Below, piece after piece: positions 41,217 to 59,238 of a DNA stretch of 64,000 bases. This stretch comes from Tropicimonas isoalkanivorans (GTDB lineage: Bacteria; Pseudomonadota; Alphaproteobacteria; Rhodobacterales; Rhodobacteraceae): NCBI RefSeq assembly GCF_900112335.1, contig NZ_FOLG01000015.1, forward strand, positions 1 through 64,000, written 5' to 3'. The notes under the pieces are model-generated. The model saw only the letters and a list, made by a program, of their open reading frames with translations, ran no database searches and was not told the origin of the DNA. The translations under genes were made by a program, and so were the position numbers. The stretch's first letter is position 1, and each line of letters opens with the position of its first letter.

Positions 41217-43472
41217 TTACATGCCGGCGTGGAAGGTGCGGCCGATCACGTCGAGCTGCTGTTCCCGGGTCAACTTGACGAAGTTCACCGCGTAACCGGA
41301 CACCCGGACAGTCAGCTGCGGGTATTTCTCCGGATGGTCCATCGCATCCATGAGCGTCTCGCGGCTGAGCATGTTGACGTTCACGTGGAAGCCGCCCGCC
41401 TGGGTGAACCCGTCGAGGCAGTTGGCAAGGTTGCGCACCTGTTCGTCCTCGGTGTGGCCCATGGAGTCCGGCGTGGCCGACGCCGTCCAGGAGATCCCGT
41501 CCTGCGCGTGCTCGTAAGGCAGCTTGGCGACGGAGGCACCTGCAGCGACGAACCCCTTCTTGTCCCGCCCATTCATCGGGTTGGCGCCCGGCGCGAACGG
41601 CTCACCCGCCCGGCGCCCGCATGGGGTGCAACCCGTTTTCTTGCCATAGACGACGTTCGACGTGATCGTCAGGATCGACTGCGTTGGCATGGAGTTGCGA
41701 TAGAACACCGGCTGCGCCTTCACCTTGCTCATGAAGACCTCGGTCAACCAGGCGGCGATCTCGTCCACGCGGTCGTCGTTGTTGCCGAAGGCCGGATAGT
41801 CGCCCTCGATCTCATAATCGACTGCCAGCCCGGCATCGTTGCGGATCACCTTCACCTTCGCGTGCTTGATCGCGGAGAGGGAATCCGCCGCGATGGACAG
41901 TCCGGCAATGCCGCAGGCCATGGTCCGCAAGACATCGCGGTCATGCAGCGCCATCTCGATCCGCTCGTAGGCGTACTTGTCGTGCATGTAGTGGATGCAG
42001 TTCAGCGCCTTGACGTATGTCTTTGCGAGCCAGTCCATCGTCTTGTCGAACCGCGCCATCACAGTGTCGTAATCGAGCACATTGTCCAGGATCGGTTCAA
42101 AGCCGGGCGCGACCACTTTGCCGCTCTTTTCGTCCACGCCGCCGTTGATGGCGTAGAGCAGAGCCTTGGCCAGGTTCGCGCGGGCACCGAAGAACTGCAT
42201 CTGCTTGCCGATGGCCATGGCGGAGACACAGCAGGCGATACCATAGTCGTCGCCCCACTTCGGCCGCATCAGGTCGTCGTTCTCATACTGGATGGCGGAC
42301 GTATCCTTCGACACCTTGGCGCAGAAATCCTTGAACCCGCGCGGGAGCTGAGCGCTCCACAGGACGGTCAGGTTGGGCTCTGGCGCCGGTCCTAGGTTGT
42401 AAAGCGTATGCAGGACGCGCATGGAGGTCTTGGTCACCAGCGTCCGGCCGTCGAGCCCCATCCCGCCGATGGCCTCCGTCACCCAGGTGGGGTCGCCGGA
42501 AAACAGCTCGTCGTATTCAGGCGTCCGCAAGAACCGGACGAGCCGCAGTTTGATGACCATGTCGTCGATCAGTTCCTGCGCTGCGCTTTCGGTCAGCGTG
42601 CCGCGCTCCATATCGCGCTGGATGTAGACGTCGAGGAAGCTCGACACCCGACCAATCGACATCGCGGCGCCGTTCTGTTCCTTCACCGCGGCAAGATAGC
42701 CGAGATATGTGAACTGGATCGCCTCCCGCGCGGTCATCGCCGGCCGGGACATGTCCACCCCGTACTTCAGCCCCATCTCGCGCAGCTCGCCCAGGGCGCG
42801 ATACTGCTCGGACAGCTCTTCCCGCAGGCGCAGGGTGTGTTCATCGAAGACCGCGTCGTCGAGTTCGGCCTTCTCCTCGAGCTTGCGTGCTTGCAGCGCG
42901 TCGATGCCGTAAAGCGCGATACGGCGGTAGTCGCCGATGATCCGGCCCCGGCCGTAAGCGTCGGGAAGGCCGGTGATGACGCCGGACTTGCGACAGGCCA
43001 CGATGTCGGGCGAGTAGACGTCGAACACGCCCTGGTTATGGCTCTTGCGATACTTGGTCCAGATCTCATGCACGGTCGCATCCGGCGTGAAGCCGAAGGA
43101 TGTCAGGCCGTTCTCGACCATCCGGAGGCCGCCGTTGGGCATGATCGCACGTTTCAGCGGCGCATCCGTCTGAAGGCCGACGATCAGTTCACGCTCCTTG
43201 TCGATGTAGCCGGCGTCATGCGCGGTGATCGAGGAGGGCGTATCGGCGGAGACGTCCAGAACGCCCTTTTCGCGTTCCTGCTTCAGAAGAAAACCCAGGT
43301 CCTGCCAGATCTGCTCGGTCCGCTCGGTCGGCCCCGCCAGGAAGGACGCATCGCCCTCATAGGGGGTATAGTTCTCCTGTATGAAGCCTCGAACGTCGAT
43401 CGACTTGCGCCATGCGCCATCGGTGAAACCAACCCAGGGGTCTCTAAGGTCTGCGGACGTCATCACGTTCAT
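41217..43472 (-). CDS. pflB: Pyruvate formate-lyase
   Basis: A 751-aa glycyl-radical enzyme that converts pyruvate and CoA to formate and acetyl-CoA. The catalytic pair Cys414-Cys415 ([11 protein letters not shown]) and the radical Gly726 in [10 protein letters not shown] are present at the expected places, and length is canonical. With pflA and focA it forms a fermentative block. The start codon is preceded by AGGAG (about 8 nt). Upstream is an AT-rich 500-nt region with an FNR-like box. Confidence 0.97.
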
Positions 43473-43988: not shown

Positions 43989-45569
43989 TCAGGCAATGAG
44001 AGCGGCGTATGCCTGCGCGAAAGCGCTGCCTCGCGCACGGGCACGGCGGGCGACCCGCCGAATGCGGTCCGGTTCAGGGTGACAGGTGGCGGCGGCCTCC
44101 ATACGAACCCAGAGACAGCGCAGCAACGTCTCCGCAGTCAAGCGCATGAAGTCGTCGGCGAGGGGCGTCGGGTCTTCCGCTCCCGCAACAGTCGCCCGCG
44201 CCCTTGTCCAAAGCACATAGCATTCCGCGATTTCCGGGTGCGTCGCGGCTTCGGTCGCGACAAACGCGTCAAAAGCCTCCGCGGCGGGTGAAGACAGGAG
44301 CCGGGTCGCAAGGGCCCGAGCATGGATGCCGTTCGCCCCCTCGTAGATCGCCGTGATGCGGGCATCCCGATACGTCTGCTCCAGCCTGTACTCCCGCAGG
44401 TACCCATACCCGCCAAGCACCTGCATGCCGAGGTCGGCCGCGCGGATGCCCGCCTCGGTGCCGTGGTATTTCGCGACAGGCGTCAAAAACTCCACGAGCC
44501 CCGGGTTCGCGCCGCTTTCCAGCGCCACGGAGGCCAGATAGGCGATGGCGCGGGCGCCGAGGGCGAGCGCGTCGATCTCGTCCAGCATTCTGCGAATATC
44601 GGCGTGGGCATCGAGCGTCACGGGAGCCCCGTCTGGCCCGCGCCCCTGGACCCGTTCCGCCGCATACGCCCGCGCAACGTCGTGGGCGCGAGCGGCGTGG
44701 GCGGCGCCTTGGAGGGCGACGTCGATGCGGGCGTGGTTCATCATCGTGAACATCGCCTTGAGTCCCTGCCCCTCCGCGCCGATCAACTCCGCCTCGGCTT
44801 CGTCAAAGGCCAGTTGGCAGGTGGGCGAGGCGTGCAGTCCCATCTTTTCCTCGATCCGGGTGACCGTGACGGCGTTGCGCGTGCCGTCGGCCCGCGTGCA
44901 GGGGCAGACGAAGAGCGACAGCCCCTTGATCCCGTCGGCGGAGGTCCTTGCGAGAACCAGATGGAGGATGCGGTCGCTCATGTCCTGATCGCCGCCGGAG
45001 ATGAATATCTTTTCACCGGTTATCGCCCAACCATCGCCGGCGCGCTCCGCCTTGCACCGGACGCGGCTGAGGTCCGATCCTGCGCCGGCCTCGGTCAGGC
45101 ACATGGTTGCAAGGGTTTCTCCGCTGGCCAGCGGCGGGATGTGGCGCGCTTTCTGTTCGTCGGTTCCAAAATGCAGCAGCGTTCGCACGGCACCTGGAAC
45201 CAGACCGGTCACCATCTGAAGCGCGTGGTTGGCGCCGGTGAAGATTTCGGACGTGATCGCCAGCATCGTGCCGTCGAGCCCTTGGCCGCCGTACGCCTCA
45301 GGGACCGTCAGGCCGGGCCAGCCCTGGTCGGCATAACTCGCATAGAGCGCCGCGAAGCCGTCGGGCATGCGGACGCGCCCGTTTTCCAGGCGGCAGCCCT
45401 GCTGGTCCCCCGGCTCGTCGAGTGGCGCGATCTCGGCCTCGGCGAAGGCGGCGAAATGGCCGGCGATCTCACCGGTGAGGTCGGCGTCGAAGTGCTCCAG
45501 CGCCGTCGCACCGGCCACGTGGGTCATGGTGAAAAGAATATCGTCGAGCGGGGCCACGAAGGGTTTCAT
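43989..45569 (-). CDS. Acyl-CoA dehydrogenase of the phenylpropanoid (phd-like) cluster
   Basis: A 526-aa FAD-dependent acyl-CoA dehydrogenase of the longer type with a C-terminal extension. Motifs include CLTEAGAGSDLS, EEKMGLHASPTCQL, VLGGYGYLREYRLEQTYRD and IYEGANGIHARAL, the last carrying the usual catalytic Glu. In this operon it would oxidise a dihydro-phenylpropanoyl-CoA to the cinnamoyl-CoA, as PhdC is proposed to do. ATG 45569 begins one base after the amidohydrolase stop, so they are coupled. It is the last gene of the run. Confidence 0.88.
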   Translation of the reverse strand: MKPFVAPLDDILFTMTHVAGATALEHFDADLTGEIAGHFAAFAEAEIAPLDEPGDQQGCRLENGRVRMPDGFAALYASYADQGWPGLTVPEAYGGQGLDGTMLAITSEIFTGANHALQMVTGLVPGAVRTLLHFGTDEQKARHIPPLASGETLATMCLTEAGAGSDLSRVRCKAERAGDGWAITGEKIFISGGDQDMSDRILHLVLARTSADGIKGLSLFVCPCTRADGTRNAVTVTRIEEKMGLHASPTCQLAFDEAEAELIGAEGQGLKAMFTMMNHARIDVALQGAAHAARAHDVARAYAAERVQGRGPDGAPVTLDAHADIRRMLDEIDALALGARAIAYLASVALESGANPGLVEFLTPVAKYHGTEAGIRAADLGMQVLGGYGYLREYRLEQTYRDARITAIYEGANGIHARALATRLLSSPAAEAFDAFVATEAATHPEIAECYVLWTRARATVAGAEDPTPLADDFMRLTAETLLRCLWVRMEAAATCHPEPDRIRRVARRARARGSAFAQAYAALIA

Positions 45570-45570
45570 C

Positions 45571-46443
45571 TCAGGCAAGCCCCAGCAGGCGGGCGGCATT
45601 GCCCTTGATGATGTCCGGGCGCAGCTCGTCCTTGATTGCGATCTTCTCGAAGTCGGCCAGCCAGCGCTCCGGTGCGATCATGGGCCAGTCAGAGCCGAAG
45701 AGGACCTTCTTGCGCAGGATCGAGTTGCAGTACTTCACGAGGATCTCGGGGAAGTACTTCGGCGACCAGCCGGAGAGGTCGATATAGACGTTGGGCTTGT
45801 GCTGGGCCACCGCCAGCGCCTCCTCCTGCCAGGGGAAGGACGGGTGGGCGAGGATGATCTGCATCTCGGGGAAGTCGACCGCCACGTCGTCCAAGTACAT
45901 CGGGTTGGAGTACTTCAGCCGCATCCCGTTGCCGCCGGGCATGCCCGATCCGACGCCCGTCTGGCCGGTGTGGAAGAGAGCGATGGCACCCGCCTCGGCA
46001 ATGGCCTCGTACAGGCCGTAAGCCATGCGGTCGTTCGGATAGAAGCCCTGCATCGTCGGGTGGAATTTGAATCCCTTGATGCCGAACTCCTCGATCAGCC
46101 GCCTTGCCTCCCGCGCGCCCATCTTGCCCTTGTGGGGGTCAATGGAGGCGAAGGGGATCAACACGTCGTCGTTCTCGGCGGCGAGTTCGGCCACCTCCTC
46201 GTTGCGGTAGCGGCGGTAGCCCGTCTCCCGCTCGGAATCGACCGGGAAGATGACCGCGGCGATGTTCTGCTCCCGGTAATGCTGCGCGGTTTCCGGCACG
46301 GTGGGCGGATGCGTCCAGGGAGCGCGAAAGTACTTGGCCATGGTTGCCTGCAGATCGTCATAGCCGTCGTCGGCATGGCAGCCGCAGGGCTCCTCGGCGT
46401 GGGTATGGATGTCGATTGCGCGGACCTTGGAAATGTCGACCAT
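45571..46443 (-). CDS. Amidohydrolase-family protein, candidate 3-oxoacyl-CoA hydrolase (PhdB-like)
   Basis: A 290-aa amidohydrolase-2 (ACMSD-like) TIM barrel. Metal ligands are the N-terminal D-x-HTH (His13, His15), then LFHTGQTG, LAHPSFPW and FGSDWP with the catalytic Asp. In phenylpropanoid beta-oxidation clusters a protein of this family is proposed to split the aryl 3-oxopropanoyl-CoA into the benzoic acid and acetyl-CoA instead of a thiolase, and no thiolase gene occurs here. The start at 46443 follows AAGGA. A decarboxylase role is the alternative. Confidence 0.82.
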   Translation of the reverse strand: MVDISKVRAIDIHTHAEEPCGCHADDGYDDLQATMAKYFRAPWTHPPTVPETAQHYREQNIAAVIFPVDSERETGYRRYRNEEVAELAAENDDVLIPFASIDPHKGKMGAREARRLIEEFGIKGFKFHPTMQGFYPNDRMAYGLYEAIAEAGAIALFHTGQTGVGSGMPGGNGMRLKYSNPMYLDDVAVDFPEMQIILAHPSFPWQEEALAVAQHKPNVYIDLSGWSPKYFPEILVKYCNSILRKKVLFGSDWPMIAPERWLADFEKIAIKDELRPDIIKGNAARLLGLA

Positions 46444-46533
46444 GAGACTGTCCTTCGGAAAAAACGGTGGGGTTGAATGCTGTCGTGCAGCGGTCATCCG
46501 GGCTTTGGCCGGGAGCGCCGTCAGGCGCCCGGA

Positions 46534-48351
46534 TCATGCCAGCGTCACCGCCGGGTCGGCGTCGTCGTAGAGACGCTCCAACAGATCCTTGCGCCGTGTC
46601 AGGACCTTGCGGAAATTGAGGTTGCCCTTTGCGGTTATCTCGCCCTCTCCCATCGACGGCGGCTCGGCGAGCACGATTGCACGGGAGACGAGCGTGGAGC
46701 TGCCGGCGATCTCTCGCGCACGTTGCGCCAGGCGACGGTGGATCTCGCCCTGCAAGAGCTTGCAGGTCAGCGCGCCGCCGTCCTCGTGCAACTCGAACCC
46801 CTCTCGCTGCAACTCGGCGACATCGGGAAAGATCATCACGCCGATCTCGTTGCGATCCGCTCCCGTGATTACGAGCTCGGAGGCGAGCGGCGCAAGGTGG
46901 GCCAGCATGTCGAGCCGCAACTGGCCGGCGCGCACCCAGGTGCCGGTCTGAAGCTTGAAGTCGTCGGAGATCCGTCCGTCGAACCGCATGCCCTGGTTCG
47001 GGTCGTCCTTGTCGATGAAGACCATCGCGTCGCCGGTGATGAAGTAGCCTTCCTCGTCGAAGGCGGCGGCGGTTCGTTCGCGATCCTCGAAATAGCCCTC
47101 CATGATGTTCGGCCCCTTCACCCGCACCTCGCAGCGCAGATCGTCGTCGGGCAGGAGTTTCACCTCCACGCCGGTCAGCGGCACGCCGACGATGCCGGAG
47201 CGCTCGGTCGGTTCCTGCTGCATCATGGTGGCGGGTGCGGTCTCAGTCAGGCCCCAGGACGAGGTCATCAGCGGCACCTCGCCCTTCACCTCCATCGCCA
47301 TCTCCTCGAAGCCGGTCCAGACTTCCTGCGGCAGGGACGCCCCGGCGTAAAAAATAAGGTCCAAATCCTCGAAGAAGCGCCGCCGGAGGTCTGAATCTTT
47401 CTTCAGCGCCCCGAGCAGCATTCCGAAGCCGAGCGGCACGTTGAAGGCGAGCGTGCCGGTCTGGAGCGAGAGGTTCTCCAGCGTGCGGTCGAACAGCCCT
47501 TTCACTGGCTTTCCGTCGTCGATGTAGAGCGACCCGCCGTTGGCGAGCATCATGTTGAAGTTGTGAGAGCCGCCGAAAACGTGGTTCCAGGGCAGCCAGT
47601 CGACGATCACCGGCGGACGGTCGCGCAGGAAGGGTAGCGCGTCGGCGAGTTGCGTTTGGTTCACGCACATCATCCGGTGCGTGGTCAGCACCCCCTTCGG
47701 GCTGGAGGTGGAGCCGCTGGTCATCAGGATCTTTCCCACCGTTTCCGGGGTGATCCGGGCGAAGGCGGCGTCCACATCGACACCGTCATCGCCTTTCAGC
47801 AAGTCATCGAACGACGTGGTGATCGTGGAATGACCGGGCCGGCTCGCAACGACCTCGATGCCCTCCAGCGCGTCCAGCGCCAGCGCTTCGGCGTAGTGGC
47901 CGGCATCGGACACGTAGGCCATCCGCGGCCGGATCAGCCCGATTGCGCCGCGCAGCCGCCCGTGGGCGCCGTGGATCAGGGAATACTGTTCCGCAACGGG
48001 CGCCGTCGGCACGCCGACATATTGCGCGGCCAGCGCAAGAAGCCCGTGATCGATGCCATTGCCCGACATGACGAGGATCGGCGTCTCCGGCCCCATGCCG
48101 CGCCCGAGCAGCGCCGCACCAATCGCCCGCACCTTCTGAAGGGTCGATGCAAAGGTCTCCGTCCGCCAGCCGGCCCCGCTTCGCTCGGCGAGAAAAACGC
48201 GGTCGGGGGCGGCATCCGCCCACTGATGGAGCCAGTCGCCGGTCCGCCCGGCCACCGGGCCGAGCGGATGGTTGGACCGCAGAAGGATGGTGCCATCCTC
48301 CCGATCTTCGCGGGTGACGGAGTGGCGCCGAAATCGATCGGTGCGTTTCAT
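46534..48351 (-). CDS. Feruloyl/hydroxycinnamoyl-CoA ligase-like AMP-forming enzyme
   Basis: A 605-aa ANL-superfamily acyl-CoA synthetase. The P-loop is TSGSTSSPKG at 211-220; then DWLPWNHVFGGSHNF, the SSWGLTETAPA adenine motif, YFITGDA and the C-terminal K-containing GNLNFRKV. The DWLPWNH motif and length fit feruloyl-CoA synthases. It would activate ferulate, p-coumarate or related acids. ATG 48351 has GGAGG upstream; the frame extends into the MarR gene. It lies 90 nt upstream of the amidohydrolase gene. Confidence 0.9.
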   Translation of the reverse strand: MKRTDRFRRHSVTREDREDGTILLRSNHPLGPVAGRTGDWLHQWADAAPDRVFLAERSGAGWRTETFASTLQKVRAIGAALLGRGMGPETPILVMSGNGIDHGLLALAAQYVGVPTAPVAEQYSLIHGAHGRLRGAIGLIRPRMAYVSDAGHYAEALALDALEGIEVVASRPGHSTITTSFDDLLKGDDGVDVDAAFARITPETVGKILMTSGSTSSPKGVLTTHRMMCVNQTQLADALPFLRDRPPVIVDWLPWNHVFGGSHNFNMMLANGGSLYIDDGKPVKGLFDRTLENLSLQTGTLAFNVPLGFGMLLGALKKDSDLRRRFFEDLDLIFYAGASLPQEVWTGFEEMAMEVKGEVPLMTSSWGLTETAPATMMQQEPTERSGIVGVPLTGVEVKLLPDDDLRCEVRVKGPNIMEGYFEDRERTAAAFDEEGYFITGDAMVFIDKDDPNQGMRFDGRISDDFKLQTGTWVRAGQLRLDMLAHLAPLASELVITGADRNEIGVMIFPDVAELQREGFELHEDGGALTCKLLQGEIHRRLAQRAREIAGSSTLVSRAIVLAEPPSMGEGEITAKGNLNFRKVLTRRKDLLERLYDDADPAVTLA

Positions 48352-48374: not shown

Positions 48375-48857
48375 TCAGCCCGGTGGCCGACGCCGTTCGA
48401 TCTTGTTCAATGCATCTTCCGCCGCCGCCCTCAGGTCTGGCGACACGCCCCGCAGCAGGGCCGCCTCGTGCGCCTTTACCGCCGCCACCGCCCGCGCACA
48501 CAGCTCCCGGCCCTCCGCCGTGGCGACGAGCGCATACGCGCGGCGGTCGTTCGGCATCCGGTCCCGCCGGATCAGGCCGCGGCGTTCAAGCTCGTCGACC
48601 AGCACCACGAGGTTCGGCCGCTCCATGTCCATCGCGTCGGCGAGTTGAGCCTGGCGCAGCCCGGGGTTTTCCACGATCAGCACCAGCGCGGTGCAAGTAA
48701 GCATCCGCAGCTCGAACGGCTTGAGCGTCCGGGCAAGGTCCGCCTGCACCACGTTGAACGCGCGCTTCATGCGATAGCCGAAGAACTCTCGCATAGTGGC
48801 ATCGCTTACCTTCGTCACCGGCTCGAGCGCTTGGGAATCCGGGCCGGGTGTCTTCAT
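48375..48857 (-). CDS. MarR-family regulator of the phenylpropanoid cluster (PhdR-like)
   Basis: A 160-aa winged-helix dimer regulator: LRQAQLADAMDMERPNLVVLVDELERRGLI is the HTH region (about 65-95) and DRRAYALVATAEGREL is the wing. MarR proteins with CoA-thioester ligands (CouR, FerC, PhdR) control such operons. The start at 48857 is chosen from domain position; the binding site is weak and Met21 is possible. It is embedded between the hydratase and ligase genes, so it is likely autoregulated with them. Its targets may be the two palindromes at 50516 and 53656. Confidence 0.86.
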   Translation of the reverse strand: MKTPGPDSQALEPVTKVSDATMREFFGYRMKRAFNVVQADLARTLKPFELRMLTCTALVLIVENPGLRQAQLADAMDMERPNLVVLVDELERRGLIRRDRMPNDRRAYALVATAEGRELCARAVAAVKAHEAALLRGVSPDLRAAAEDALNKIERRRPPG

Positions 48858-48942: not shown

Positions 48943-49710
48943 TCACCGGAACCTCGGCGCGCGCTTTTCGAGGAACGCCGCCAGCCCTTCCACCGCATCC
49001 GGGCTGGTCTGGGTCAGCGCGGCGCAGAGGCTTTCGGTAAAAAGTCCGTCGGCCTTCGCCATGTCCTCGATCCGGGACAGCGCCTGGATCATGATGTAGT
49101 TCGACAGCGGCGCGTTCTTCGCGATCTTCCGGGCAAGATCCTGCGCCATCGGTAGCGCCTCGCCCTCCCCGACGCTGTAATGCGTGAGGCCGAGCCCCAG
49201 CCCCTCCTCAGCGGAATACTTCCGCCCGGTCAGCATCATCTCGATCATCCGGTCGGCCCCAAGGATGCGCCCGACCCGGACCGATGCCCCGCCGCCGACG
49301 AAGATGCCCCGACGCCCCTCCGGAAGCTGGAAGATCGTTGAGGGCTCCGCGATACGCACGTGAGTCGCCGTGGCCAATTCCAACCCGCCGCCGATCACCG
49401 CACCGAACATCGCGGAGACAACCGGCAGGCCACCGTACTGGATGCGGTCCATCACCTGGTGCCAGCCGCGCGAATGGCGCATGGTGCCCTCCGCATCGCG
49501 GGCGACATGCTCGCTCAGGTCCAGCCCGGAGCAGAAGTGCCCCGCCGTCCCGGTGAGCACCACGACCTTCACGCCCTCCGGCGGCGCGGAGAAGAAGCCG
49601 TCGATGGCCTCCAGCAGCTCGTCGCACATCGCGTTGCGCTTGGCGGGGCGGTTCATGGTGAGCGTCGCGATGGCATCCGCCACCTCGATCTTGAGAATGG
49701 GCTCGCTCAT
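48943..49710 (-). CDS. Enoyl-CoA hydratase (crotonase family)
   Basis: A 255-aa crotonase. The oxyanion-hole motifs are present: HFCSGLDLSEH (first Gly pair) and AVIGGGLELATATHVRIAE (second), followed by FQLPEGRRGIFVGGG. In context it would hydrate the hydroxycinnamoyl-CoA double bond. The conserved second Glu of classic hydratases appears replaced by Gly/Val in the GIFVGGGA segment, so hydratase versus lyase activity is uncertain. GAGGAG lies upstream of the ATG. It follows the SDR gene by 10 nt. Confidence 0.88.
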   Translation of the reverse strand: MSEPILKIEVADAIATLTMNRPAKRNAMCDELLEAIDGFFSAPPEGVKVVVLTGTAGHFCSGLDLSEHVARDAEGTMRHSRGWHQVMDRIQYGGLPVVSAMFGAVIGGGLELATATHVRIAEPSTIFQLPEGRRGIFVGGGASVRVGRILGADRMIEMMLTGRKYSAEEGLGLGLTHYSVGEGEALPMAQDLARKIAKNAPLSNYIMIQALSRIEDMAKADGLFTESLCAALTQTSPDAVEGLAAFLEKRAPRFR

Positions 49711-49720
49711 GGATGTCTCC

Positions 49721-50485
49721 TCAGCGTGGCGGCAGGCGCACGGCGCCGTCGAGCCGGATGGTGGTCCCGTTCAGAAACGGGTTGGTGATGATCTGTTCGG
49801 CCAGCAGGGCGTATTCGCGCGGCTCTCCGAGACGCGCGGGAAAGGGGATGTCGGCGGTGATTTTTTCCGTCACCTCCGGCGGCAGCCCCTCCATCATCGG
49901 CGTATGGAAAAGGCCCGGCGCAATCGCGACGACCCGGATTCCGTGGCGGGCGAATTCCCGCGCCGCGGGCAGGCACATAGAGGCGATGGCGCCCTTTGAG
50001 GCCGCATAAGCTGCCTGCCCCACCTGCCCGTCCTGATAGGCGACGGAAGCCGTGTTGACGATCACCCCGCGCTCGGTCGTCTCCAGCGGGTCCAACTCCG
50101 CCATACGGCGGGCGGCATGGCTCATCACGTTGTAGGTGCCGAAAAGGTTCACCCGCAGCGTCCGTTCAAAGACGTCGAATGAGAGCTTCCCCTCCCGCCC
50201 CACGATCCGTGCCGCAAGCCCCACCCCGGCGCAGTTGACGGCGATCCGCGGCACCCGGCCGAGCCTCTCGCAAGCGGCATCGACGGCCGCACCCACGGCA
50301 TCCGCGTCGGACACGTCGACCTGCACCGCGACGCCGCCGATTTCTTCCGCCACGGTGTTGGCTCCGGCCGCGTCGAAATCCAGCACGGCCACCTTGCCCC
50401 CCTGCGCCGCCAGGTGGCGCGCCGTCGCCGCCCCGAGGCCGCTGGCGGCTCCGGTGACGATGGCTGCCTCTCCCGCGACCTTCAT
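49721..50485 (-). CDS. Short-chain dehydrogenase, candidate 3-hydroxyacyl-CoA dehydrogenase
   Basis: A 254-aa SDR with the NAD fold TGAASGLG at about 11-18, NCAG, and the catalytic S-Y-K set (TASVAYQDGQVGQAAYAASKGA). IAPGLFHTPMMEG and NGTTIRLDGAVRL are as in type-II 3-hydroxyacyl-CoA dehydrogenases. In context it oxidises the 3-hydroxy-3-arylpropanoyl-CoA. GGAG lies before the ATG. It is the first gene after a candidate operator/promoter and heads the beta-oxidation sub-operon. Confidence 0.88.
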   Translation of the reverse strand: MKVAGEAAIVTGAASGLGAATARHLAAQGGKVAVLDFDAAGANTVAEEIGGVAVQVDVSDADAVGAAVDAACERLGRVPRIAVNCAGVGLAARIVGREGKLSFDVFERTLRVNLFGTYNVMSHAARRMAELDPLETTERGVIVNTASVAYQDGQVGQAAYAASKGAIASMCLPAAREFARHGIRVVAIAPGLFHTPMMEGLPPEVTEKITADIPFPARLGEPREYALLAEQIITNPFLNGTTIRLDGAVRLPPR

Positions 50486-50515
50486 GGCGCCGCTCCAGTT
50501 TCGTTGTCATTAATC

Positions 50516-50535
50516 ATTGTTATGCCTCATATCTA
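50516..50535 (-). promoter_or_regulatory. Operator-like palindrome, site 1 (before the SDR gene)
   Basis: CATTGTTATGCCTCATATCT shares a 9-mer CATTGTTAT and the following nCnnCATAnCT pattern with site 2 at 53656. The core GTTAT-N5-ATATC is a near-perfect dyad. It lies in the 92-nt AT-rich gap between dctM and the SDR gene and is flanked by TCATTA...TAATGA. It is a candidate binding site for the cluster's MarR protein. Confidence 0.5.
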
Positions 50536-50577
50536 ATGAATGCTGACTGGTCTGCCGAGTCCCCGTTCGGGGGGCCA

Positions 50578-51888
50578 TCAGTCAGGCAGCAAGAACAGTG
50601 TTATGGCCGGGAACAGGACCAGGATCGCGACGCGGATGATGTCCGAACTGACGAACCAGATCACCGCCTTGTAGGTATCCTTCATGGCCGTCTGCCGGTC
50701 CATCGCGTTGATGATGAACAGGTTCATCCCCACCGGCGGCGTGATCAGGCCGACCTCCACGACGATCAGCACCAGGATGCCGAACCAAATTGCCATGTGC
50801 TCCGGGCTCATGCCGTAGTCCATCGCGCTGACCACCGGGAAGAAGATTGGGATCGTCAACAGGATCATGCTGAGCGAATCCATCAGGCAGCCGAAGACGA
50901 GGTAGAAGACGAGGATCAACGTCAGCACCGTCCAGGGGCTGAACCCCTGTCCGACCACCCAGCTCGACAGCTCCTGGGGCACCTGGCTCAGTGCCAGGAA
51001 GCTGTTGTAGAAGCCCGCCCCGAGAACGATGAAGAAGATCATCGCCGTGCTCATGGCCGTGTGAATGATGGCCTCCATGAAGACCCGCCAACCAAGGTTG
51101 CCGGAAACCAGCGCGATCAGCCCGGTTCCCGCCGCGCCGACGGCCGCGCCCTCGGTCGGGGTGAACCAACCTACGTAGATGCCGCCGACCACGAGCGCGA
51201 AGACGAGCAGCACGGGCCAAACGTCGATCAGGGCACGGACGCGCTCGGGGTATGTAACCGGCTCTCGGGTTCCCGCGGCGGCGGGGAACACACGGACATA
51301 GAGCGAGATGGTGATGACGTAGCCGAGCGCGGCCAGAAGCCCGGGCACGAAGGCCGCAAGGAACAGCTTGGCAATGTTCTGCTCCGTCAGGATGGCATAG
51401 ATCACCAGGATGACGGAGGGCGGGATGAGAATGCCCAGCGTGCCGCCTGCGGCCAGCGTTGCGGTGGAGAAGCCCCCCGAGTAGCCATAGCGGCGCAATT
51501 CCGGCAGAGCCACGCGGCCCATCGTGGCCGCCGTCGCGAGCGAGGAGCCGCAGATCGCACCGAAGCCGGCACAAGCCCCCACGGCGGCCATCGCGACCCC
51601 GCCCTTGCGGTGCCCCAGCCAGCTTTCGGCGGCCTTGAAGAGTGCCGAGGACATGCCCGACAGCGTCGCGAACTGGCCCATGAGCAGAAACATCGGGATG
51701 ATGGACAGCGAATAGCTCGAGAAGGTCGAATAGGTCTCGCTCTTGAGCTTGCTGAGGAACATGTTGGGCCCGCCCATGGCGAAGTAGAGCCCGCCGAGGC
51801 CGCAGATCATCATTGCCAATCCGATCGGGGCCCGCAGGAAGATCAGGAGAAGAAGGACCGGGAAGGACCAGTATCCAAGCTCGAGCAT
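50578..51888 (-). CDS. dctM: TRAP transporter large permease DctM
   Basis: A 436-aa inner-membrane protein with about 12-13 helices and the DctM signatures FLRAPIGLAMMICG, GGTLGILIPPSVILVIYAILTEQ, TPTEGAAVGA and GLITPPVGMNLFIIN. It forms the sodium-driven channel of a tripartite transporter. The start follows the dctQ stop by 2 nt. With no C4-dicarboxylate genes around and an aromatic operon on both sides, an aromatic or phenylpropanoid acid is the likely substrate. Confidence 0.93.
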   Translation of the reverse strand: MLELGYWSFPVLLLLIFLRAPIGLAMMICGLGGLYFAMGGPNMFLSKLKSETYSTFSSYSLSIIPMFLLMGQFATLSGMSSALFKAAESWLGHRKGGVAMAAVGACAGFGAICGSSLATAATMGRVALPELRRYGYSGGFSTATLAAGGTLGILIPPSVILVIYAILTEQNIAKLFLAAFVPGLLAALGYVITISLYVRVFPAAAGTREPVTYPERVRALIDVWPVLLVFALVVGGIYVGWFTPTEGAAVGAAGTGLIALVSGNLGWRVFMEAIIHTAMSTAMIFFIVLGAGFYNSFLALSQVPQELSSWVVGQGFSPWTVLTLILVFYLVFGCLMDSLSMILLTIPIFFPVVSAMDYGMSPEHMAIWFGILVLIVVEVGLITPPVGMNLFIINAMDRQTAMKDTYKAVIWFVSSDIIRVAILVLFPAITLFLLPD

Positions 51889-51890
51889 GC

Positions 51891-52478
51891 TCAATGGAGC
51901 GCTCCTTCCGAATAGGGCATGTAGCTGCGGCCGGTGAAGAACTCGATCACCCGAGCAACGGCGCAGTAGATCGCGACGACCGAGGCCGCGAGGGCGGCAA
52001 CGAAGCTCGCCCCATAGGCCCACCACACCGGGAACTGCAGAAGGAAGGTCGTCTCACCATAACGCAGCTTGTCTTCCATACCGACAAACAGACGCCAGGT
52101 GATGAGCAGGATCACGGCACTCAGCGCGACTTCCCAGAGCGTGACCAGCAGGCGGTTCAACCAGCGCGGATACTTCGCCGCGAAAATGTCCACCGTGGCG
52201 TGACCGCCGTGGAGCTGGCAGATCGGCAGGAAGGCGAAAATGGCAAAGGCGACGCCGGCTTCGACCAGTTCGAAATCGCCAGCGACCGGTCCCACGCCCG
52301 TGGCGAGCAGTGCCCGCGACGCGCCTTCGGACATGGAGGTGAGGAAGGCGGAATGGGCGAGCGTGTTCAGACCGCGGCCTAGCACGCTGATGCAGGTCAG
52401 AAGCACGAGCGCCGTCAGCACAAGACCGCCAAGGATCGCCATGAGACGCCCGAGGCGTTCCATGAGGGTGAGCAACAT
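51891..52478 (-). CDS. dctQ: TRAP transporter small permease DctQ
   Basis: A 195-aa four-helix membrane protein that joins the large permease. The first helix (about 10-32) ends in CISVLGRGLN, and the central CQLHGGHATVDIF is the usual DctQ mid-protein motif. It lies between dctP and dctM in the standard P-Q-M order. GGGAGA precedes the ATG. Length is at the upper end for the family. Confidence 0.9.
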   Translation of the reverse strand: MLLTLMERLGRLMAILGGLVLTALVLLTCISVLGRGLNTLAHSAFLTSMSEGASRALLATGVGPVAGDFELVEAGVAFAIFAFLPICQLHGGHATVDIFAAKYPRWLNRLLVTLWEVALSAVILLITWRLFVGMEDKLRYGETTFLLQFPVWWAYGASFVAALAASVVAIYCAVARVIEFFTGRSYMPYSEGALH

Positions 52479-52552
52479 GGGAAATCTCCCGAAGGAAGAC
52501 GGAATGGATCAAGGGCTTCCGGGCGGGCAGCGCCCGCCCGGAGGTCGCGGAC

Positions 52553-53596
52553 TTACATGGAGGAGGTGTTTTCCTCGATCAGCTCCAGCGCGCGCTGGCG
52601 CAAACCGGTGCCGTCGATCCCCTTCTGGTCCATTTCCTCGATCCAGGAGTCGATGGTTGGCTGGGCCGCGGTTTTCCATTCTTCGACTTGCTCCGGCGTC
52701 AGCTCGATGACGGTCGCGCCATCGGCGATCGCGGCATCCCGCGGGCCGGCATCGTCGGCCTGCATCTGCTTTCCGGCGAAGGCGGAGAATTCGAGACCGG
52801 AGTTGGCGTCAATCACGGCCTTCAGGTCGTCGGGCAGCGACTCGTACTTGTCCTTGTTCATCGCGAAGACAAAGGTCGCGGTGTAGAGCGTGTCGTCGCC
52901 GAACGTGGTGTGGTTTTTCACCAGTTCATTAATTTTCAACGCACCGGTAATTTCCCACGGAATGACGGTGGCGTCGATCACCCCCTTGGAGAGCGCTTCC
53001 GGGACGGCCGGGATCGGCATGCCCACCGGGGTCGCCCCAAAGTTGGCGAACATCTGATTGGTCACGCGGGTCGGCGCCCGAAGTTTCACGCCGTTGAGGT
53101 CAGCCAGCGATCCGATCGGCTCCTTGGAATGGATGATACCCGGCCCGTGAACCCAGAGGCCGAGGACCTTCACATCCTTGAAATCCTCGTCGAACATCGT
53201 CTCTTCGGCCAGCGCCCAGTAGGCGCGCGACACCGCTTCGGCGTTGGTCATGGTAAAGGGAAGCTCGAAAACCTCGGTGCGGGGGAAGCGGCCGGGCGTG
53301 TAGCCGGGCAAAGTCCACACGATATCGGCGACGCCGTCGATCACTTGGTCGATCAGTTCAGGCGGCTTTCCACCAAGCTGCATGGCCGGAAAGTGCTGGA
53401 TCTCGATCCGTCCACCCGATTCGGCCTCGATCTTTTCCGCCCAGGGCACAAGGATGTTCGTCGGCGGGTTTGCTTGCGCCGGCAGGAACTGGTGCATGCG
53501 CAGGGTCACCTCCGCCGCAAGTCCACCGGTGGCAGTGAAACCGAGTGCGAGCGCGGCAGCGACTCCGGCGACTCGGATGAATGAACGATTGATCAT
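52553..53596 (-). CDS. dctP: TRAP transporter substrate-binding protein DctP
   Basis: A 347-aa periplasmic binding protein with a Sec signal peptide (about 1-28, ending GLAA) and the DctP fold: MHQFLPAQANP at the mature start, PWAEKIEAESGGRIEIQ, the selectivity-filter region GVKLRAPTRVTNQMFANFGATPVGMP with the conserved Arg, and ALSKGVIDATVIPWE. The Arg binds the carboxylate of the substrate. ATG 53596 follows AGGGAGGACATC. It begins about 64 nt after operator-like site 2. Confidence 0.93.
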   Translation of the reverse strand: MINRSFIRVAGVAAALALGFTATGGLAAEVTLRMHQFLPAQANPPTNILVPWAEKIEAESGGRIEIQHFPAMQLGGKPPELIDQVIDGVADIVWTLPGYTPGRFPRTEVFELPFTMTNAEAVSRAYWALAEETMFDEDFKDVKVLGLWVHGPGIIHSKEPIGSLADLNGVKLRAPTRVTNQMFANFGATPVGMPIPAVPEALSKGVIDATVIPWEITGALKINELVKNHTTFGDDTLYTATFVFAMNKDKYESLPDDLKAVIDANSGLEFSAFAGKQMQADDAGPRDAAIADGATVIELTPEQVEEWKTAAQPTIDSWIEEMDQKGIDGTGLRQRALELIEENTSSM

Positions 53597-53655
53597 GATG
53601 TCCTCCCTTTGGATCATCTTTTCCGCCTAACCGGCGGCAGAAGGTGATACGCCAA

Positions 53656-53675
53656 CATTGTTATACTACATAACT
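53656..53675 (-). promoter_or_regulatory. Operator-like palindrome, site 2 (before dctP)
   Basis: CATTGTTATACTACATAACT contains a perfect dyad GTTAT-ACTAC-ATAAC at 53660-53674 and repeats the pattern of site 1 (same CATTGTTAT, then CATAnCT). It lies in the 87-nt gap between pcaB and dctP, 9 nt from the pcaB stop. It is a candidate MarR-type operator for a promoter inside the supercluster. Confidence 0.55.
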
Positions 53676-53683
53676 GTATTTGT

Positions 53684-54985
53684 CTATCGCCTCGTCGCCC
53701 AGATACGCTCGGCTTCGGCGTGGCTCGCGGGCACGACGCTCGCCGGATCGAGGACACTGTCCCAATCGACGGCGGGGACCTTTTCTGCAAGCGCAGCTGC
53801 AAACCCCTCCGGCGCGGACAGAGCCGCGCGAACGAGGGCCTTCGCCTCGCTCCGGGAGCACTCCCGCGCCAGCGCGAAACTGGCCGCTTCCGCCATGGAG
53901 CCGGGTTGCGCGTCGAGTGTACGGCGCATGGCTTCCGGGTTGGGGATCAGGCTGTCAGCGAGCGCGCGAGCGTGGCGCAGAGCCGCGCCGCAGGCGAGCA
54001 GAAGTTGCGGCAGCAGGATCCATTCGAGCGCCCATGCCGCCCCGTCCCGCTCCTCGGCCGGCGCCGCCGCAGCAAGAAGGCCCCCGTGTAAGGAGGTGGC
54101 CAGCCGACCAAGCGTGAAGACGGCCTCCGCCGCCACCGGATTTGCCTTTTGCGGCATGGTGGAGGAGCCACCACCGTCTCCGGCGCGAACCTCGCCAATT
54201 TCGGAACGGCCGAGCAGGATCAGGTCGGAACCGAATTTCGACAGGCCCGCAACAACAGAGGCCAACCAACCAGCCGCCTCCAGTATGCCGCCACGGGCAG
54301 TGTGCCAAGGCGGGCTGTCGGCAAGGTCGAGCTCCGCCGCGAGCGTCTCGGAAATGGACGGACCGTAGGGGGCAATAGCCGTGTTCGCCCCCGCCGCGCC
54401 GCCAAACTGCACGCGAAGCGCATGCACCCGGACCGCCGGCAGAGCGGCTTCGGCGTCTATCAGGGGCTGCGCCCAGCGGGCAAGCTTTAGCCCGAAGGTG
54501 ATCGGTGTCGCCACTTGCCCCCGCGTTCGCGCGGCCATCACAAGATCCTCGTGCGTGTGCGACTTAGCTTTCAGATCGTCGATCACCCCAGCAAGGCGAC
54601 CCTCCAACAGGTCGAGACACGCGCGAAGCTGCAGCACCATCGCGGTATCTGCGATGTCCTGACTGGTCGCGCCCCAATGCAGCCAGTCGGCGGCGTCTTC
54701 GGGAATGCACGCGCGGACAATATCCAGAAGCGCGGGAACCGGCACGCCGTCCGCCGCAGTGCGCTGGCGCAGATCCTCGGGCTCGAGATCGATGCAAGCC
54801 AGATGTTCGTCGATCCCTTCCGCCGCTGCCTCCGGGATCACGCCGAGCCTTCCCTGCACCCGCGCCAAGGCCCGTTCGACCTCCAGCATCGCGCCGATCT
54901 CGCTCTTGCCGTCGAGCAAGGCGGCAAGTTCCGGGTCACCGAACAGGCCCTCGTAGGTTGCACTCGTCGTGAGGTTCACCAGCAT
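53684..54985 (-). CDS. pcaB: 3-Carboxy-cis,cis-muconate cycloisomerase
   Basis: A 433-aa member of the fumarase/aspartase superfamily that lactonises the ring-cleavage product of protocatechuate. Signatures are WLHWGATSQDIADTAMV, FGGAAGANTAIAPYG and the catalytic loop GGGSSTMPQKANPV. ATG 54985 starts 7 nt after the BKACE stop; there is no strong binding site, so coupling to the upstream gene is likely. Confidence 0.94.
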   Translation of the reverse strand: MLVNLTTSATYEGLFGDPELAALLDGKSEIGAMLEVERALARVQGRLGVIPEAAAEGIDEHLACIDLEPEDLRQRTAADGVPVPALLDIVRACIPEDAADWLHWGATSQDIADTAMVLQLRACLDLLEGRLAGVIDDLKAKSHTHEDLVMAARTRGQVATPITFGLKLARWAQPLIDAEAALPAVRVHALRVQFGGAAGANTAIAPYGPSISETLAAELDLADSPPWHTARGGILEAAGWLASVVAGLSKFGSDLILLGRSEIGEVRAGDGGGSSTMPQKANPVAAEAVFTLGRLATSLHGGLLAAAAPAEERDGAAWALEWILLPQLLLACGAALRHARALADSLIPNPEAMRRTLDAQPGSMAEAASFALARECSRSEAKALVRAALSAPEGFAAALAEKVPAVDWDSVLDPASVVPASHAEAERIWATRR

Positions 54986-54992
54986 CGGCACG

Positions 54993-55826
54993 TCATCCCG
55001 GCAAGCGCAGGCCCAAAATCTCGCGTGCCTGCTGCCACGACGCCACCGGGCGCTCGTATTTCTCGCAGAGCTCCGCAGCCCGCCGAACCAGCGCCGCGTT
55101 GGAAGGGGCCAGGGTGTCGCGGTCCAGCCTGACGTTGTCTTCGAGGCCCGTGCGAGTGTGACCGCCGGCAGCAATGCTCCACTCGTTCAGCGTGATCTGA
55201 TGGCGCCCGATCCCGGCGGCGCACCATTCCGCCTCCGGCGCCAGCCGCTCTACCGTCTTGATGTAGAAATCGAAGACCTCCCGATCCACCGGCATCGCAT
55301 TCTTCACACCCATGACGAACTGGACATAGAGCTTGCCCGGAACGCGCCCGTCGCGGTTCATCGCGACCGCCTGGAAGATGTGCGACAGGTCGAAGGCCTC
55401 GACCTCCGGCTTGACGCCATAGGTGCGCATCTCGCTGGCGAGCCAGTCCACCAGATCGGGCGGGTTTTCGTAGACGCGGGTGGGGAAATTGTTGGAGCCG
55501 ACCGACAGCGACGCCATGTCCGGCCGAAGCGGCAGCATCCCGCCCCTGGCCCGCCCCGCCCCCGAGCGGCCACCGGTGGAGAACTGGATGATGATGCCGG
55601 GGCAATGCGCCTCCAGCCCTTCCTTCAGCCGCGCAAACTTCTCCGGGTCCGAACTCGGGGTGCCGTCGTCATTGCGCACATGGCAGTGGGCGATGGTCGC
55701 GCCGGCCTCGAAGGCCTCGTGCACGCTCTCCACCTGCTCCGCCACGGTGATCGGCACCGCCGGATTGTTGTCCTTCGTGGCAACCGAGCCGGTAATGGCA
55801 ACGCAGATGATACAGGGTTTCGTCAT
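54993..55826 (-). CDS. Beta-keto acid cleavage enzyme (BKACE, DUF849)
   Basis: A 277-aa zinc-dependent TIM-barrel enzyme that exchanges a beta-keto acid and acetyl-CoA for acetoacetate and a new acyl-CoA. Family motifs: AITGSVATK at the start, AGATIAHCHVRNDDG with the HxH zinc ligands, IQFSTGG and the later WCAAGIGRHQ and GGHTRTGLEDN. Its place between pcaG and pcaB, with pcaIJ and pcaF missing, suggests beta-ketoadipate as substrate, giving succinyl-CoA and acetoacetate. That is an inference. The ribosome binding site is weak. Confidence 0.88.
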   Translation of the reverse strand: MTKPCIICVAITGSVATKDNNPAVPITVAEQVESVHEAFEAGATIAHCHVRNDDGTPSSDPEKFARLKEGLEAHCPGIIIQFSTGGRSGAGRARGGMLPLRPDMASLSVGSNNFPTRVYENPPDLVDWLASEMRTYGVKPEVEAFDLSHIFQAVAMNRDGRVPGKLYVQFVMGVKNAMPVDREVFDFYIKTVERLAPEAEWCAAGIGRHQITLNEWSIAAGGHTRTGLEDNVRLDRDTLAPSNAALVRRAAELCEKYERPVASWQQAREILGLRLPG

Positions 55827-55875
55827 GGGGTGTGTCCCGGGTCTCTCGTTTCGACCGGCCCTTGGCCGGACCAGG

Positions 55876-56568
55876 TCAGATGTCGAAGAAGACGGTCTCG
55901 TCCTCGCCCTGCAGCTTGATGTCGAAACGGTAGACCGGCAAGCCATCACGCAGCGTACGGGTGGCAATCAGGGTTTTGCGCCGGCGTTCCCATTCGATCA
56001 GGTTCATCACCGGATCCTCGGCGTTCGCCTCCGCCTCATCCTCGAAGTAGATCCGCGTGTTGAGCCCGATGTTGATGCCGCGCGCCACGATCCAGAGGTT
56101 AATGTGTGGCGCCATCTGGCGCAGTCCGGCGTGGCCACGTCCGTAGGCGTCTTGCAATTCTTCGTCGGCGGCCGGGCGAACTTCGCCCCCCATGGCGGCG
56201 CGAGCGGCCACCGGCCCCGGCTTGATCGTGTCGAAACCCCATTCGCCAGTCTCGAAGTCGGTGATGACGCGGCCCCAGCCGCGGAACCCCTCCTCCACCT
56301 CGCCCGGGCTCTCGGGATGCGCGTAGACGCCTTCGGAATTGGCCTGCCAGGCCTCCAGCATCACGTCCTTGACGGGCGAGCCGGTCGCGTCGATCACGAT
56401 CCCCTCCACGCGGATACGCTCGCCCTTGGCATTCGGTCCTGCGATATCCCAGCCCAGTTCCTGCTGGTAGATGTCGAACCCCGCCGCGCCCGGCGCAAGG
56501 CCGATGTGGACGTAGGGGCCGGCGGTCTGGGAGGGGGTCTCTTTCAAATAGTCGAGTTTCTGCACCAT
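55876..56568 (-). CDS. pcaG: Protocatechuate 3,4-dioxygenase alpha subunit
   Basis: The 230-aa alpha subunit of the intradiol dioxygenase. Motifs are ETPSQTAGPYVHIG, VEGIVIDATGSPVKDVMLEAWQAN (first 20 residues cited: GIVIDATGSPVKDVMLEAWQ), GWGRVITD and APHINLWIVARGI. It lacks the full iron-ligand set, as alpha subunits do. AGGAG lies 9 nt before the ATG at 56568; the frame is open to 56643, overlapping pcaH. It pairs with the pcaH product 64 nt upstream. Confidence 0.94.
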   Translation of the reverse strand: MVQKLDYLKETPSQTAGPYVHIGLAPGAAGFDIYQQELGWDIAGPNAKGERIRVEGIVIDATGSPVKDVMLEAWQANSEGVYAHPESPGEVEEGFRGWGRVITDFETGEWGFDTIKPGPVAARAAMGGEVRPAADEELQDAYGRGHAGLRQMAPHINLWIVARGINIGLNTRIYFEDEAEANAEDPVMNLIEWERRRKTLIATRTLRDGLPVYRFDIKLQGEDETVFFDI

Positions 56569-59146: not shown

Positions 59147-59190
59147 GTCGTTCCTCCCGGGATGAACGATGACTTGTTGATAGGGCGATG

Positions 59191-59207
59191 TAAAATGAGA
59201 TATTTTA
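59191..59207. promoter_or_regulatory. Perfect palindrome TAAAAT-N5-ATTTTA between pobA and pcaQ
   Basis: A 17-bp dyad with T-N15-A symmetry lies in the 92-nt intergenic region; TTTCC-N6-GGAAA at 59216-59231 is a second, shorter dyad beside the pcaQ start. LysR-type regulators bind such sites in divergent promoters, so this is the candidate PcaQ site. It does not match the ATAACC-N4-GGTTAA PcaQ box described in other species. Confidence 0.5.
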
Positions 59208-59238
59208 CGAGATAGTTTCCGAAATTGGAAAGTTTCTG

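Follow-up and report, generated by a model that had tools for sequence, protein, structure and literature searches.

The window, as we call the whole stretch of 64,000 nucleotides of Tropicimonas isoalkanivorans DNA analysed here, carries on its minus strand a gene cluster in the order pobA-pcaC-pcaH-pcaG-BKACE-pcaB, a palindromic box, dctP-dctQ-dctM, a second box, and a run of genes led by an SDR dehydrogenase. A LysR gene, identified as PcaQ by NCBIfam, is divergent from this cluster. Both boxes, hereafter candidate operators 1 and 2, were found just upstream of a sub-operon, as the initial annotation had proposed, operator 1 in the 66-bp gap between pcaB and dctP and operator 2 in the 92-bp gap between dctM and the SDR gene. 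The genes between them, all on the minus strand, encode a TRAP solute-binding protein (dctP, 52553..53617; Pfam DctP, NCBIfam TRAP_S1), the small permease (dctQ, 51891..52478; Pfam DctQ) and the large permease (dctM, 50578..51888, start codon uncertain; its Pfam DctM match was made with the longer open frame, 50578-52026).

The minus-strand run behind operator 2 starts with the SDR gene (49721..50485; Pfam adh_short), followed by the genes for enoyl-CoA hydratase (ECH; 48943..49710; Pfam ECH_1), a CouR-like MarR protein of 160 amino acids (48375..48857; Pfam MarR), an AMP-forming CoA ligase (46534..48351; Pfam AMP-binding), an amidohydrolase_2 protein (45571..46497; Pfam Amidohydro_2) and, at the end, an acyl-CoA dehydrogenase (43989..45599, start codon uncertain; Pfam Acyl-CoA_dh). 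The marR gene is, as described before, embedded in this second sub-operon; it lies between ECH and ligase. The ligase matched the NCBIfam acyl-CoA synthetase subfamily PRK12582 with 635 bits, under the cut-off of 777; since its place in the cluster of Phaeobacter sp. G2 is taken by a gene annotated as feruloyl-CoA synthase, it probably acts on hydroxycinnamates. The SDR protein is, by analogy with the Atu1415 step of A. fabrum, a probable 3-hydroxyacyl-CoA dehydrogenase; the amidohydrolase_2 protein, for which no NCBIfam match was obtained, is a probable 3-oxoacyl-CoA ketohydrolase.

Two exact copies of the 20-mer CATTGTTATnCnnCATAnCT were detected on the plus strand of the window, at 50515-50534 and 53656-53675, and no further copy at up to 3 mismatches, against 0.04 expected from dinucleotide shuffles, confirming the matching pair of palindromes first noticed. 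Within operator 1 (53656..53675), the core dyad GTTAT-N5-ATAAC is perfect at 53660-53674, as initially placed. The one-mismatch dyad of operator 2 (50515..50534) has the form GTTAT-N5-ATATC (GTTATGCCTCATATC) and is located at 50519-50533, one base to the left of the earlier position 50520-50534. The consensus first drawn is present exactly in both copies, but its one-sided CATTG departs from a fuller symmetric operator, approximately AATAGTTAT-N5-ATAACTATT, of which both copies are parts and which makes a candidate dyad of 21-23 bp. Operator 1 is situated in the dctP promoter region, where a minus-strand promoter-like pair with 9 of 12 matches flanks and overlaps it; the first hexamer, TAGACA, starts at 53686, and the second ends at 53657. 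The centre of operator 2 is 41 nt from the SDR start codon, and the promoter scan called no such pair there. Many unrelated genomic matches would have spoken against a specific operator. In the 4.98-Mb genome, only four matches were found at up to 3 mismatches, namely the window pair with none and two with 3, and thus no further match with fewer than 3; the reversed-pattern control gave six. Outside the cluster, this genome contains no further site of operator form except one match to the degenerate pattern.

The MarR protein carries a MarR winged helix (Pfam PF01047, E 4.2e-12) with the recognition helix MERPNLVVLVDELE. Its nearest solved structure is 6c28, named CouR (E 3.9e-18), whose sequence stretch matches Rhodopseudomonas with identities of up to 94%; the second is 5cyv (E 2.9e-13), which the available part of PMC5487221 names as CouR with coumaroyl-CoA. 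The MarR was found in 98 of the 394 sampled genomes of the family. The order ECH-marR-ligase of the window is consecutive in 41 of 61 loci carrying a close relative of it (group A).

Conservation of the box, which the initial annotation had named as a check in related genomes, was then found by matrix scan at a threshold of 18. By leave-one-locus-out scanning, a box was detected in 51 of the 61 group A loci, and 68 of 70 boxes stand no more than 250 nt upstream of an annotated cluster gene; core-dyad sites numbered 54, in 42 of these 61 loci, versus 0-3 in 20 block shuffles. Among 39 held-out loci with weaker MarRs (group B), 19 were boxed, 17 of them with a box in such a position. In Phaeobacter sp. 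G2, with the order SDR-ECH-MarR-feruloyl-CoA synthase-amidohydrolase, the box (score 24.9) is 74 nt before SDR. Not every member of the MarR lineage has the box, since the scan gave none in 10 of 61 loci of group A and in 20 of 39 of group B. The exact 17-mer AGTTATNNNNNATAACT was identified in 13 of the 394 genomes of the family. Eight of these are among the 98 with MarR, from which the 17-mer is in each case no more than about 6 kb away, and five are among the 296 without it. As controls, 20 ligase loci lacking such a MarR were chosen, and the matrix scan detected the box in none. These controls are imperfect: 15 have TRAP genes, and most may serve another pathway, since only 3 have ECH at 70% identity or above; one of them (L223) carries a 31% identical MarR and three are from genomes with MarR elsewhere. 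No replacement regulator was found among 10 ORFs from 7 of these 20 control loci, which comprised six of other enzyme families, one ECH and three without Pfam match. When plasmids were searched with the gap before SDR, the matches listed (5 of 495) included only SDR coding sequence. The operator is thus conserved and associated with the MarR lineage, which supports the proposal of one repressor for uptake and side-chain genes.

The box also goes with the recognition helix of MarR. Boxes were present in 66 of 74 loci with Asn in this helix and in 4 of 26 with another residue. MarRs with Gly or Ser in place of Asn mostly lack the box, and half of the non-Asn loci carry instead ATTGTT-N9-AACAAT, found at up to 1 mismatch in 13 of these 26 loci but in only 3 of the 74 with Asn and in none of the 20 controls. 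Allowing up to 2 mismatches raised the non-Asn count to 22 of 26, but this setting was dropped as it also gave sites in 9 of 20 control and 43 of 74 Asn loci. The link between helix and box rests on few independent events, as the weakly resolved MarR tree shows only 3 changes of the helix residue.

In the Rhodopseudomonas/Bradyrhizobium group, a box just before couR was detected in all 80 loci inspected (the best 80 of 175 relatives), with a second box more than 7 kb upstream in 48 of them and ATTGTT-N9-AACAAT, at up to 1 mismatch, in four. The far box is about 58-66 nt before the aligned ECH-ligase start in all seven loci that cover it (nine annotated). Matrix scanning in both directions recovered in the window the same operator form as in these couR promoters. 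A matrix made from the group's sites ranked the two window sites first and second with 24.8 and 19.5, the next score being 4.4, its sites having been picked by a matrix from 52 sites that included both window sites. We tentatively suggest, with chances close to balanced, both that the operator-repressor pair has been kept between the window family and this group despite changed gene order and pathway make-up, and that in side lineages an Asn-to-Gly change in the helix replaced the operator AGTTAT-N5-ATAACT by ATTGTT-N9-AACAAT. If so, nature would have provided, in the side lineages, a series of changes in MarR specificity. The paired repressor/operator variants could be used for MarR specificity studies or p-coumaroyl-CoA sensors.

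Taken together, the palindromes are very probably operators of a CouR-type MarR that would repress dctPQM and its own unit, predicted to be SDR-ECH-marR-ligase-amidohydrolase and perhaps acyl-CoA dehydrogenase, until released by hydroxycinnamoyl-CoA. Binding by MarR and its CoA-ester ligand are proposed from homology to CouR. A MarR dimer would sit on AATAGTTAT-N5-ATAACTATT and so cover the dctPQM promoter and that of the SDR-led unit, blocking RNA polymerase and repressing its own gene as well. p-Coumarate or ferulate would enter via the TRAP system and be converted by the ligase into the CoA ester, which would release MarR so that both units are induced. This reading links uptake by the TRAP system with oxidation of the side chain, and provides a testable predicted operator for a hydroxycinnamate regulon in the family, in which the MarR occurs as widely as noted above.

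It is unlikely, though worth weighing, that MarR binds the sites but responds to another acyl-CoA or a free aromatic acid: the acyl-CoA dehydrogenase hints that dihydro substrates may also be used, but in the available parts of the papers a response to CoA esters is reported for FerC, for HcaR of A. fabrum and for CouR of both R. palustris and R. jostii. Some MarR-bearing loci are boxless and five MarR-negative genomes carry the exact 17-mer, which would fit a regulator encoded elsewhere in the genome that binds the sites, with MarR as a passenger. This is improbable, however, as in different genera and orders the box follows the MarR lineage, as it is linked to the recognition helix, and as it has only the one degenerate match outside the cluster in the own genome.

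Still less probable is that the sites are LysR-type sites of PcaQ, by which the pca activator would control transport and side-chain genes as well. The LysR-type motif T-N11-A fits the window dyad by symmetry, pcaQ is in the same window, and dctP comes directly after pcaB. The divergent pcaQ-pobA gap is boxless, however, and of the 51 group A loci with a box the window alone has a PcaQ homologue annotated nearby, so that PcaQ was judged an unlikely binder. The PcaQ consensus is ATAACC-N4-GGTTAA, which at up to 3 mismatches has 23 matches in the window versus 10.2 expected, none in the box gaps and none in the pcaQ-pobA gap either, so that these matches weigh little for or against PcaQ. The independence from PcaQ claimed at first has partial support: the pob/pca promoter lacks the box, but transcription of the pca operon may continue into dctPQM, given the 66-bp gap with no minus-strand terminator-like site between pcaB and dctP. 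Chance likeness of two AT-rich promoter elements, to which the AT-rich gaps and the overlap of operator 1 with a possible -10 might point, was rejected as next to impossible in view of the shuffle expectation of 0.04, the conservation across loci, and the boxes in the couR promoters of another order, from which a matrix was made that finds the window sites again.

The CouR-type MarR control proposed here resembles known systems. As in the window, the CouR regulon of R. palustris (couAB, CouPSTU, TarPQM) combines a MarR repressor, a ligase and an enoyl-CoA hydratase, and, in the available part of PMC3610893, TRAP uptake (TarPQM). The operator form of the window recurs in the predicted couR and ECH-ligase promoters of Rhodopseudomonas loci. 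Unlike the window, R. palustris also has an ABC transporter, and its couR is apart from couAB, whereas marR is between ECH and ligase in the window. In nine Rhodopseudomonas/Bradyrhizobium-group loci, the MarRs are 35-39% identical to the window MarR, and ECH homologues (45-51% identical) occupy the place of couA. The R. palustris route is described as non-beta-oxidative in the available part of PMC3610893 and as beta-oxidative in that of PMC10458429. In A. fabrum, according to the available part of PMC7797058, the MarR repressor HcaR controls feruloyl-CoA synthase, hydratase, hydroxyacyl-CoA dehydrogenase and the enzyme step that follows in side-chain breakdown; the SpG8-1b region there has eight genes (six enzymes, two regulators), its vanillate part under a GntR regulator, and has no TRAP genes, unlike the window. 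CouR of R. jostii RHA1 is likewise a MarR protein, with p-coumaroyl-CoA as ligand and a 5-N5-5 inverted repeat over its promoters as in the window dyads (available part of PMC4737184). Its operator is ATTGA-N5-TCAAT, a form absent from both window boxes (GTTAT-N5-ATAAC and GTTAT-N5-ATATC), and the recognition helix is DPSQIVGL in 5cyv, of the R. jostii CouR type, and ERPNLVVL in the window MarR. Among the matches listed in the open-licence literature, no title concerned a Rhodobacteraceae CouR operator, and the available part of the regulon paper PMC5343134 has no passage on coumarate or hydroxycinnamate. The design, a CouR-type regulon, is already known, and the newer element is an operator common to two bacterial orders.

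On the minus strand, the genes are arranged in the order pobA, pcaC, pcaH, pcaG, a beta-keto acid cleavage enzyme gene, pcaB and dctPQM, followed by genes for SDR, enoyl-CoA hydratase, MarR (48375-48857), AMP ligase, amidohydrolase and acyl-CoA dehydrogenase; pcaQ is divergent from this pobA-led run. The beta-keto acid cleavage enzyme (54993-55967, minus strand), encoded inside the pca operon, was identified above cut-off by the NCBIfam model for 3-oxoadipate:acetyl-CoA acetyltransferase, and is possibly the replacement for PcaIJ/PcaF. A PFL-like glycyl-radical enzyme carrying a Gly_radical domain is encoded immediately outside the aromatic cluster, at 41217-43472.

The initial annotation proposed two matching GTTAT-N5-ATAAC-type palindromes bracketing the TRAP genes. 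Both 20-mers were confirmed as exact copies, at 53656-53675 before dctP and at 50515-50534 before the SDR gene; the one-mismatch dyad also exists, but at 50519-50533, one base away from the position first assigned. With up to three mismatches, no other copy of the 20-mer was detected in the window (0.04 expected). The genome scan suggested as a check for many unrelated matches gave, in 4.98 Mb and at the same stringency, the two exact window sites and otherwise only two 3-mismatch sites, with six matches for a reversed-pattern control. A looser symmetric pattern yielded genome-wide the same two sites and one more on another contig.

Of 394 family genomes, 98 contain relatives of MarR at E<=1e-15, the genome of the window counted. 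As part of all these matches, we analyzed group A (60 loci fetched around the best MarR matches, plus the window) and group B (39 loci around weaker matches). Search for a 19-bp symmetric core gave 54 sites in 42 of the 61 group A loci (0-3 in 20 block shuffles), of which 52 lay upstream of SDR, ECH, dctP, dctQ or marR at no more than 250 nt; median box distances were 41 nt for the 13 sites before SDR, 44 nt for the 14 before ECH and 91.5 nt for the 20 before dctP. The scoring matrix built from these 52 sites, two of them from the window, indicated an operator consensus near AATAGTTAT-N5-ATAACTATT. The CATTG part of the consensus proposed initially is thus a one-sided departure from this symmetric operator. 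At the threshold of 18, the box was called in 51/61 group A loci (leave-one-locus-out) and 19/39 group B loci, with no match in one block-shuffled copy per group. An annotated cluster gene begins no more than 250 nt downstream of 68 of the 70 group A boxes (in 50 loci) and of 23 of the 28 group B boxes (in 17 loci), and the expected conservation in orthologous gaps was therefore observed in most of the group A loci and in about half of the group B loci. For instance, the plasmid-borne SDR-ECH-MarR-feruloyl-CoA synthase-amidohydrolase cluster of Phaeobacter sp. G2 carries a box before SDR.

Three lines of evidence point to MarR as the putative binder of the boxes. By the matrix scan at 18, the box was detected in none of 20 control loci (L215-L234) with a good ligase match but without such a MarR in the stretch, a chosen set with TRAP genes in 15 and a close ECH in three, including one locus with a 31% identical MarR and three from genomes carrying MarR elsewhere. 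Given this composition, most of the controls may belong to another, related acyl-CoA pathway that is controlled differently; a search of 10 of their ORFs found no regulator. The exact 17-mer AGTTATNNNNNATAACT was present in 13 of the 394 genomes (8/98 MarR-positive and 5/296 others), and all eight MarR-positive copies were within about 6 kb of MarR. In groups A and B together, the box was present in 66/74 loci with Asn in the recognition helix versus 4/26 without (16/21 versus 3/18 in group B alone), a trait with only three changes on a weakly resolved tree, for which an independent-pairs test is unable to reach significance. With one mismatch at most, ATTGTT-N9-AACAAT was found in 13/26 non-Asn loci versus 3/74 Asn loci, in 0/20 controls, and in 4/80 loci of the Rhodopseudomonas/Bradyrhizobium group.

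The closest solved structure to the window MarR is 6c28, named CouR; its stretch matches Rhodopseudomonas with identity up to 94%, and we take it to be the R. palustris protein. The best 80 of 175 relatives were fetched, from Rhodopseudomonas, Bradyrhizobium and near kin, some of them only as MAGs. Among these best 80, the box (threshold 18) was located directly before couR in every locus, and a second box more than 7 kb upstream in 48. Of nine loci annotated, all seven whose stretches reach this far box have an ECH-ligase pair, in the place of couA-couB, whose aligned start follows the box by about 58-66 nt; the other two stretches start within the ECH gene. In L143, the couR gap is common to a divergent open frame resembling an ABC permease (putative). 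A reverse matrix from 86 distinct sites of this group ranked the two operator sites first and second across the entire window (24.8 and 19.5; third, 4.4), with mild circularity, as its sites were picked with the matrix holding 2/52 window sites. A second overlapping operator-like dyad, 16 bp from the first, was observed in L145 (9838, 9854) and L116 (8814, 8830); such overlaps in some couR/marR promoters suggest tandem dimers.

No MarR box was detected in the pcaQ-pobA gap, and a PcaQ homologue annotated in the stretch was absent from 50 of 51 boxed group A loci, indicating that the pca genes are probably outside the box regulon. The gap contains a perfect 7-bp dyad, GTAAAAT-GAGAT-ATTTTAC (59190-59208), unlike the MarR box and a candidate site for PcaQ or another regulator. 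The gap between pcaB and dctP is 66 bp long and contains no terminator-like site on the strand of these genes, and dctPQM could thus also receive pca transcription. The proposed independence from PcaQ is accordingly supported only in part, by the box-free pca promoter, and is qualified for dctPQM. Within the group A sample, this adjacency is peculiar to the genome of the window, as pcaB was directly before dctP in none of the 60 other loci (L043 and L072 have weaker pcaB matches at other places).

For dctP, a promoter-like pair was called that overlaps the first box; at the second, before SDR, no such pair was called. The overlap agrees with repression by occlusion, and the location of marR within the unit predicted to be repressed agrees with autorepression. 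Release by hydroxycinnamoyl-CoA would be expected by analogy with CouR, FerC and A. fabrum HcaR. The initial annotation, which envisaged one CoA-ester-responsive repressor, was right in substance; the box pair, its conservation and its association with the MarR lineage were observed, with binding predicted. The embedded MarR is very probably a CouR-type repressor of dctPQM and its own unit, presumably released by a hydroxycinnamoyl-CoA. That the operator-repressor pair is kept across orders, with a change of the helix Asn switching the operator in side lineages, is a tentative reading to which we give slightly less than an even chance.

In Agrobacterium fabrum, the hydroxycinnamate route is described as comprising a ligase, a hydratase, a dehydrogenase and a beta-keto step (PMC7797058); the window cluster would resemble it in all four, with roles and substrate presumed. 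R. palustris CouR is reported to control the TRAP system TarPQM and couAB (PMC3610893), and the window would share this control logic of TRAP uptake together with couAB-type genes. The CouR-type design is already known; what is newer, and worth a bench test, is the operator shared across orders together with the apparent switch of helix and operator.
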